Positions 8,538-10,383 of a stretch of 64,000 bases of DNA are shown in pieces (the stretch's first letter is position 1; every line of letters begins with the position of its first letter). The DNA is from Gottfriedia acidiceleris. GTDB lineage: Bacteria; Bacillota; Bacilli; Bacillales; Bacillaceae_G. The notes below the pieces were generated by a model. It was not told the DNA's origin. It ran no database searches and worked only from the letters and a program-made list of their open reading frames with translations. Both the position numbers and the translations under genes were made by a program. The DNA lies in contig NZ_NESS01000001.1 of NCBI RefSeq assembly GCF_002128425.1, positions 1-64,000 of the forward strand, written 5' to 3'.

Positions 8538-8571
8538 TAAAAAAGTGTGACACATAAACAAACGTCACACT
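8538..8571 (-). terminator. Terminator of the HTH/pseudo-F1-beta gene
   Basis: AGTGTGAC (8544-8551) pairs with GTCACACT (8564-8571); T run on the minus strand. Confidence 0.8.
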
Positions 8572-8600: not shown

Positions 8601-9644
8601 CTACAAGCTACCAATAAAATTCATTTTATCTACTTCCATCGAATCGTAAGCACCATCAATTAGTTTTCGAACATCCTGTAAAGTATTTTGCAAATTAACA
8701 GATGCCCCTTTTGTACCTGTGAATTCTTCTGCTACGAAAAATGGTTGTGTTAAATATGCTTCTAATAATTCACCACGTTTATAGGTCAATTTTTCATTTT
8801 CAGGTAATGAATCAATTCCATGTACTGCTACTAATGACCTTAGCTCACGATATCTACGTAGTAATTTCTGAGCTGCCTTTTGTACTTGGTTGTGGGTTTG
8901 ATCTGATTGATTATCTTCTAAAACTGTAGATGTTGAATGAATAGGATTAATTGCAGGGTATTTATGTCTGAAAGCTAAATCTGCATCAAACTGCCATAAT
9001 GTTTCTAATGGTCCATATGGGAAATCTTCGTCCACCGCTTCTCCTTTTATATCAACTAAAAATGTAGTTACACCTTCAATACCTATATCTGATAATTTTT
9101 GTTGGAGACGGTTAATATCACCTGTAATGACGTTTGAACGATCCGCCGCGAAAGCAAACTCTACGTTTTTTCCCGCTTTTGCTATTGCTTCATACACTTC
9201 ATCAGTTGAATGACATACTAAATTTACATCAGCTAGAATAGCGTCTATATCTGGATGCTCACCTTCTGGTTTTAATAGAATTGTAAAATATGAATCATTC
9301 TTTAATTTATAAAACATTTCTGCTAATACGACTAATTGACCCATGCCAGGTCTTGCAACCAAACCGACTGTACCACCTTTTACTAATGGAGCAAATAAAT
9401 CAAGCGTTTTTATTCCCGTTTCAATCATCTCAATCTTCTCCCCTCTAATAATAAGTTCATCCAATGTACATTCTGCTAAAGCAGCTAATGCGACTAGTGT
9501 TTTTACTTCTGAGCGACCAATTGGAATTTTTCCAGTACATAAGTTTGAAACTGTAGCTGGTCGAAGTCCAACAGATTTTGCAGAAGTAGTCAAATTCGGT
9601 ACTCTGCGACGTAATAATGCGACATTCAAGCGTAAATTTTCCAT
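8601..9644 (-). CDS. XRE-type HTH protein fused to a degenerate F1-ATPase beta-like domain
   Basis: A 347-residue two-domain protein. Residues 1-66 resemble a Cro/C1-type helix-turn-helix (SAKSVGLRPATVSNLCTGK). From residue 76 it aligns with the F1-ATP synthase beta subunit: TGIKTLDLFAPLVKGG matches the entry to the nucleotide domain, but the P-loop GGAGVGKT is replaced by ARPGMGQL (97-104), losing the catalytic Lys. The middle is shortened; the C-terminus keeps the beta order: INPIHSTST (232-240), RRYRELRSLVAVHGIDSLPENEKL (DELSEED-loop equivalent, 263-286) and FFVAEEFTG (302-310). The beta-barrel domain is absent. Strong AAAGGAGG before the ATG. Likely a DNA-binding protein with a structural, non-hydrolytic beta fold; function unknown. 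Confidence 0.85.
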   Translation of the reverse strand: MENLRLNVALLRRRVPNLTTSAKSVGLRPATVSNLCTGKIPIGRSEVKTLVALAALAECTLDELIIRGEKIEMIETGIKTLDLFAPLVKGGTVGLVARPGMGQLVVLAEMFYKLKNDSYFTILLKPEGEHPDIDAILADVNLVCHSTDEVYEAIAKAGKNVEFAFAADRSNVITGDINRLQQKLSDIGIEGVTTFLVDIKGEAVDEDFPYGPLETLWQFDADLAFRHKYPAINPIHSTSTVLEDNQSDQTHNQVQKAAQKLLRRYRELRSLVAVHGIDSLPENEKLTYKRGELLEAYLTQPFFVAEEFTGTKGASVNLQNTLQDVRKLIDGAYDSMEVDKMNFIGSL

Positions 9645-9700
9645 TTTTCTCCTCCTTTAAGTTTAATTTATTCGAATTTAAAGAAAAACGCAAGTGTTTT

Positions 9701-9819
9701 TTACTTTAAGAAGTAATTTTTTTACCCTTAAAAGTAAAAATAGGTATTTTTTAGTAAAGTCTCATTCTTTTTTTGAAAATATTTGGTACTTTTGATGATT
9801 AGGATAAGTAAAATTTACT
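9701..9819. promoter_or_regulatory. Cluster of GTAAA/TTTAC palindromes upstream of the HTH/pseudo-F1-beta gene
   Basis: Three inverted repeats share the same half-site: TTACTTTAAGAAGTAA (9701-9716), TTTTTAC...GTAAAAA (9719-9740) and AGTAAAATTTACT (9807-9819); a single AGTAAAG lies between them near 9752. They begin about 57 bases upstream of the gene. Autoregulation by the encoded HTH protein is the simplest reading. Confidence 0.55.
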
Positions 9820-10002: not shown

Positions 10003-10383
10003 ATGAACTTTTTCCCTCAATATAGAACATTTCCAGGCTTTCCGGGACAACCGGGCGGATTCCCAGGGCAACCAGGTGGATTCCCAGGATTTCCGGGACA
10101 ACCGGGTGGGGGGGGGCATGGCGGGTCTCAAGGTCAACCGACTGCACCACCTCCTTCATTCACGCCAACAATGTCTCAAGCTACAACATTTGCGGTAGAT
10201 CCAGGTGCAATTTCTGGTTGTCGTTTTAGAAATACTTATGTATGGTTGAATAATGGTGAACAATTTTGGTTCTTTCCAACCTTCGTCGGCAGAACTTCAG
10301 TTGCAGGTTGGAGATGGATTGGCTGGAGATGGGTATTCTTTGGAATCGATACACATCGAATTAGATCGTTTACGTGCTTCTAA
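10003..10383 (+). CDS. Collagen-like GFPGQPG repeat protein with aromatic C-terminal domain
   Basis: A 126-residue protein. Residues about 10-46 are near-perfect Gly-Phe-Pro-Gly-Gln-Pro-Gly repeats, then a Pro/Ser linker. The C-terminal half from about residue 64 is a compact domain rich in Trp, Phe and Arg (FRNTYVWLNNGEQFWFFP, GRTSVAGWRWIGWRW) with two Cys. There is no signal peptide. Bacillus genomes carry relatives with the same FAVDPGAI and RNTYVWL core, usually unannotated; a spore surface role is inferred from composition and the possible sigma-K promoter. ATG preceded by AAAAGGAG. Confidence 0.72.
   Translation: MNFFPQYRTFPGFPGQPGGFPGQPGGFPGFPGQPGGGGHGGSQGQPTAPPPSFTPTMSQATTFAVDPGAISGCRFRNTYVWLNNGEQFWFFPTFVGRTSVAGWRWIGWRWVFFGIDTHRIRSFTCF

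Follow-up and report, generated by a model that had tools for sequence, protein, structure and literature searches.

The N-ATPase, mycoplasma G1/MMOB1670 and MSC_0618 paralogues are ring-ATPase subunits without a helix-turn-helix (HTH) domain, and we know of no F1-beta-like C-terminal domain in the Cro/C1 class of HTH proteins. A tested regulator of comparable build is BzdR of Azoarcus, which joins an XRE-type HTH to a shikimate-kinase-like domain (PMC3602430). No description of an HTH/F1-beta protein was found in the portion of the PMC literature that was searched, and print elsewhere may hold one. In the window analyzed here, which is a 64,000-nucleotide stretch of DNA from Gottfriedia acidiceleris, we found a gene for such a protein at 8601..9644 on the minus strand (347 aa, ATG start, TAG stop). 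The first-pass annotation had read its product as an HTH fused to a pseudo-F1-beta domain, and domain matches and alignment confirmed this observation. The genome carries one copy of the gene, and a normal atpD is present in the atp operon on another contig. One family member is labeled 'hypothetical protein' in RefSeq, and NCBIfam has no model whose cut-off the window protein passes.

Residues 1-68 (9441..9644, minus strand) form a Cro/XRE-type HTH domain, as indicated by HTH_26, by conservation and by the helices of the structure model, and they are highly conserved across the family in the alignment. Of the 56 members in alignment A2 (drawn from 67 sequences, the window protein and its 66 relatives), 45 matched HTH_26, the best at 3.9e-6, and the window protein alone reached 0.018, which is under the Pfam cut-off and was counted against the regulator reading. 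Residues 69-347 (8604..9440, minus strand) make up a degenerate F1-beta nucleotide-binding and C-terminal domain, with homology in sequence and fold covering both parts. The AtpD model TIGR01039 gave 133.8 bits against a cut-off of 462.85, and the N-ATPase (TIGR03305), mycoplasma G1/MMOB1670 and MSC_0618 models scored lower than AtpD. The alignment begins at AtpD residue 136, so that the N-terminal beta-barrel crown is absent and the HTH stands in its place. No model of Rho was present among the 22 NCBIfam and 5 Pfam matches, though a distant fold relation could escape such models.

The P-loop GLVARPGMGQLV (residues 94-105, 9330..9365, minus strand) has Gln in place of Lys and Leu in place of Thr, as the earlier reading had held, and Arg98 and Gln103 are invariant in all 67 aligned proteins; Gln103 was also present in 18/18 further copies, one of which has Lys instead of Arg98. 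Where we place the catalytic Glu the residue varies among members, and a deletion has removed the stretch with the presumed catalytic Arg. The Walker-B-like strand (residues 163-169, 9138..9158, minus strand) retains D168 in 66/67 proteins. The places that presumably line the adenine pocket with aromatic residues are also kept (Y/F229 in 67/67, F302 in 64/67, A305 in 64/67, F/Y308 in 65/67); the segment QPFFVAEEFTG (residues 300-310, 8715..8747, minus strand) is the equivalent of the adenine-pocket segment, together with Y229. The structure model is weak (pLDDT <50) at 203-231, 237-247 and 303-313, which covers part of this supposed pocket. In the C-terminal domain the agreement with F1-beta is close and takes in RYxEL as well as the terminal VAExFTG; the acidic DELSEED motif shows no conservation across the family alignment. 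Judged from its sequence, the active site of the pseudo-F1-beta domain is dead. Both halves of the gene are under purifying selection, with a whole-gene dN/dS of 0.06-0.11 in 4/4 pairs tested.

The gene has a clear ribosome-binding site (GGAGGAG, 9649..9655, minus strand) and an intrinsic-terminator-like hairpin 3' of it (8544..8571, minus strand, 10-bp stem and T-tail), so that it is probably transcribed as a unit of one gene. Ahead of it on the same strand we predicted two operators, operator 1 TTACTTTTAAGGGTAA (9722..9737, PWM 18.1 bits) and operator 2 TTACTTCTTAAAGTAA (9701..9716, PWM 18.5 bits), 21 bp from each other. The likely promoter, TTGCGT-N17-TAAATT (9665..9693, minus strand), lies just downstream of the operators and was assigned by position relative to relatives; a consensus promoter scan did not pick up this box pair. 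Family counts were made on 67 upstream regions, one from the window gene and the rest from 66 relatives (L077, a partial match, was left out of all counts), and they do not represent independent events because several loci belong to the same or sister species. The palindrome TTAC-N8-GTAA was found in 66/67 regions (PWM, 6 bits), with two to four copies in 64/67, and the gap between TTAC and GTAA was 8 in 103 exact cases, whereas every other gap length between 3 and 11 turned up once at most. The symmetric PWM, which was trained on the same 67 regions, gave 188 sites of at least 7 bits versus a mean of 2.1 (max 5) in 20 mononucleotide shuffles. The exception was L068, with two sites about 590-640 bp upstream. 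Divergent relatives taken from a different collection (L135-L144, 49-58% identity) had a site scoring 13 bits or more in 10/10 cases, and a Paenibacillus plasmid copy of 50% identity had two sites 22 bp apart ahead of the gene.

The spacing of neighboring sites was 22 bp in 62 of the 126 gaps, 21 or 23 bp in 42 and 43-46 bp in 14; since 21-23 bp corresponds to about two turns of DNA, the operators would lie on one DNA face. A site lay at most 60 nt from the start codon in 57/67 regions; of these, 52 had TTGnnn 22 bp upstream and 54 had TAnnnT placed 1 nt inside the last site, leaving a spacer of 17 nt between the boxes, which suggests that the likely -35 and -10 boxes are inside the last two operators. 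Gottfriedia differs in that its two clear operators are just upstream of the probable promoter and not on it, so the protein might be an activator there. The G325 copy, in which the pseudo-F1-beta frame is open and the HTH is gone (L175:4838-5593, G325:C4), has lost its operators as well, and the congener G289, with similar neighbors, has both. Two HTH-less reads were found (L145 and L146), of which L145/G325 is a real loss and L146 ends at a contig end; thus, the joint absence of HTH and operator reflects one event. Besides its full copy on C20, G292 has a second partial copy (L173:1686-2055, G292:C23) that encodes 95 aa of the HTH end and has its own 16-bit operator. In Sutcliffiella-type genomes, an extra operator of 17.6-20.9 bits was seen in four loci (L028:6448, L039:6616, L044:6635, L045:6614) and also at G365:C1:855413, inside a membrane-transporter-like upstream neighbor gene and some 1.4-1.6 kb away from the start codon; this extra operator might serve as an auxiliary site for DNA looping.

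To look beyond the own promoter we used a two-site model (R1) built from site pairs with a 22-bp spacing, 41 out of 51 of which went into it. Its best match fell ahead of the own gene, its operon or a partial copy in 19/20 gene-bearing genomes (own gene in 17, operon in G350, partial second copy in G292 with E 0.008), with E down to 3.5e-10, and in G002 the own array ranked second (E 6.0e-4 versus 5.6e-4). Within the genus, the own promoter was the best two-site match in 6/8 gene-bearing genomes. Gene-less genus genomes (G003, G008, G010, G011) also gave matches at E 0.006-0.05, which was therefore taken as background, and the E of 0.003 for the window array is weak by itself because these genomes reach down to 0.006. 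The strict consensus TTACKYTNNARMGTAA occurred at 20 places in 18 gene-bearing genomes; 8 of these belong to the own promoter or operon, which leaves 12 in other positions, versus 16 for the reversed control; a wider regulon of strict sites is thus not indicated, and weaker single sites could escape so strict a consensus. In about 1.09 Mb of locus sequence, only 7 sites of at least 16 bits were located beyond the 250-bp stretch that precedes the gene, 2 of them being the displaced L068 array and 4 the one place in the neighbor gene of the Sutcliffiella-type genomes. The atp operon was considered as a direct strong target and rejected, there being no site above 9.5 bits in the 20 kb around it (L078). 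A near-perfect operator, TTACTCTATAGAGTAA, is present in the intergenic region before an alpha/beta hydrolase gene of the window's genome at G000:C12:191034-191049 (L079, L093) and was the strongest single candidate there; it is not a conserved target, because in each of the 12 remaining genus genomes the surrounding 551 bp found no match longer than 119 bp. In most genomes the regulator seems to control only itself, with no visible output, and we counted this against the regulator reading.

Over the 67 loci we found no conserved neighborhood, the largest neighbor cluster being a response-regulator family in 19 loci at scattered positions, and neither an F1 gene nor a mobile element was among the conserved neighbors. 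With a simple ORF caller, which missed L074, same-strand genes closer than 100 bp were seen upstream in 1/66 loci, and closer than 60 bp downstream in 3/67; most copies are solitary. Near the 5' side of the window gene there is an ORF at 10003-10383 (plus strand) with FPGQPGGFPG repeats and a Trp-rich end, which has the look of a spore-coat or surface-type protein and has relatives at similar distance in six loci. The 67 loci came from one-genome-per-species contigs, one of them partial, and the full ones were 60-96% identical. The gene was present in 8/13 genomes of the genus (own included), in 19/398 genomes of the Bacilli sample (own and two truncated reads included; 16/146 genera) and in 3/398 of the phylum sample (own, G108 and G563, of which G563 represents a family that is not in the class). 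The occurrence in Bacillaceae that the first-pass annotation had proposed to check was borne out, in a patchy form, and the range proved broader, extending to Caryophanaceae, Paenibacillaceae and a single family not belonging to the class. In the gene tree, for which bootstrapping was not fully settled and the root was placed for drawing only, genera of Bacillaceae and of Caryophanaceae stand intermingled in a supported clade of 14 rows, and Mesobacillus and Cytobacillus are split; this mixing of families and splitting of genera points to horizontal transfer. The best 12 of 108 plasmid matches included one family member (Paenibacillus cellulositrophicus, 50%), and the other 11, as well as the best 12 of 19 phage matches, were AtpD-like proteins of 23-27%.

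The predicted operators line the own promoter in many Bacillus-like bacteria, so the gene probably encodes a self-regulating switch. The reading that we favor, and consider probable though well short of assured, is an autorepressing transcription factor whose pseudo-F1-beta domain senses a ligand or a partner. Dimers would bind the 16-bp TTAC-N8-GTAA palindromes through the N-terminal HTH, and, with mostly two to four operators about 22 bp apart on one face, and on the promoter in most relatives, several dimers would probably occupy neighboring sites and shut off transcription of their own gene. Neighboring dimers would touch, possibly through F1-type surfaces, and the bound array would cover the promoter. 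The pseudo-F1-beta body, having lost catalysis, would serve as sensor and oligomerization domain: its aromatic pocket, with Arg98 and Gln103 at the old phosphate loop, would most likely take an adenine-containing or similar small molecule, or else a protein partner, and the ligand or partner would loosen or tighten the array. Where an acetamidase/formamidase or alpha/beta hydrolase gene is in the operon, it would be controlled together with the regulator.

Such operons suggest another explanation, unlikely in our view, in which the family is a pathway-specific regulator of amide or ester breakdown; the ancestral unit would have been regulator, acetamidase/formamidase and alpha/beta hydrolase, and the solitary copies would be leftovers or would act at weaker single sites. 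The partner amidase (PF03069, 3.4e-27) is directly downstream in L064 (28 bp gap), L065 (11), L074 (22) and G098 (8-bp overlap), the G350 operon has the order operator, amidase, alpha/beta hydrolase, regulator, a hydrolase alone is downstream in L076, and amidase remnants are downstream in L059 and L063. Furthermore, G098 is in the smaller supported clade (6 rows) and the other linked copies are in the larger one, so that the link, present in both main parts of a tree rooted for drawing only, would be old or re-formed. Amidases of at least 70% identity were found in 2/398 class genomes, both beside the HTH/pseudo-F1-beta gene, and two of 59-61% in the class sample were in genomes without it; in Gottfriedia, a 47-50% identical amidase occurs in 13/13 genomes, whether the regulator is present or not. 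However, only 5 intact links were counted among about 85 copies, some of them from the same species, both domains remain under purifying selection in 4 pairs although most copies are solitary, and strict sites are not enriched elsewhere. A further idea is that gene and operators move as a 1.15-kb self-propagating autoregulated module (addiction-like or selfish) with an HTH protein that mainly regulates itself. When 14 loci were compared as DNA, most cross-genus homology ran from about 60-140 bp before the gene, where the operators are, to a point not more than about 40 bp from the stop codon, and the patchy presence and the family-mixing tree agree with movement of such a unit; but in four of the 14 loci the homology continues into the amidase region, and divergence between genera alone also leaves short homologous blocks. 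As no PADLOC family was matched at E up to 1, no relative was found on viral contigs and no mobile element is a conserved neighbor, we regard this module as very improbable.

Two other explanations start from the origin of the domain itself. The protein might be an F1 mimic, with the pseudo-beta domain acting as decoy subunit, inhibitor or assembly sensor by docking on the ATP synthase or on free F1-alpha, and the HTH only steadying its level by autorepression. The close agreement of the C-terminal domain with F1-beta speaks for this, and, since strict operators are not enriched off the own promoter, a missing regulon would fit an output through protein contact. On the other hand, the beta-barrel crown is missing, the DELSEED motif is not conserved and the amidase links have nothing to do with F1; the proposal of the first-pass annotation that the protein senses the ATP synthase itself likewise gained no support, as the atp operon has no operator and no F1 gene is a conserved neighbor. 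We therefore judge an F1 mimic to be improbable. Unlikely as well, though slightly less so, is an energy sensor, in which the dead F1-beta DNA-binder would respond either to the adenylate pool or to F1 subunits that are not assembled, with ring-derived surfaces making the array cooperative at its two-turn spacing.

We return to the autorepressing transcription factor and its place among known proteins. That a DNA-binding protein had been built on a dead F1-beta fold, as initially suggested, is supported by our analysis, and the conserved predicted operator array, which the first-pass annotation had not noticed, speaks strongly at the sequence level for DNA binding. Sensing of nucleotides, also suggested there, is possible: the phosphate-binding lysine, the catalytic Glu and the stretch with the Arg have gone, but the adenine-pocket aromatics have stayed. 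On sequence grounds, this is a real and conserved regulator family of enzyme-derived type with its operator predicted to the base, and for that reason DNA binding, autoregulation and ligand are directly testable. The protein resembles F1-ATPase beta (AtpD, TIGR01039) in how its nucleotide-binding core and its C-terminal helical domain are folded and arranged, and shares with it the adenine-pocket aromatics and the VAExFTG end; it differs in having no beta-barrel, P-loop Lys/Thr, catalytic Glu or Arg-bearing segment, and its gene is mostly solitary with its own operator. With Cro/C1-type HTH repressors (HTH_26, HTH_31) it has in common the HTH, palindromic operators and repeated sites at the own promoter, whereas its sensor and oligomerization domain is F1-beta-like. 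BzdR (PMC3602430) also has an N-terminal XRE HTH and a body from a P-loop enzyme, which in BzdR is the effector-binding domain; this likeness is one of working principle, and BzdR keeps Walker A and derives from shikimate kinase, whereas our protein derives from F1-beta and has lost the Walker-A Lys/Thr. If our reading is true, the beta subunit of the rotary ATPase, among the most conserved enzymes, has been turned into a regulatory domain, in the way seen for shikimate kinase in BzdR.
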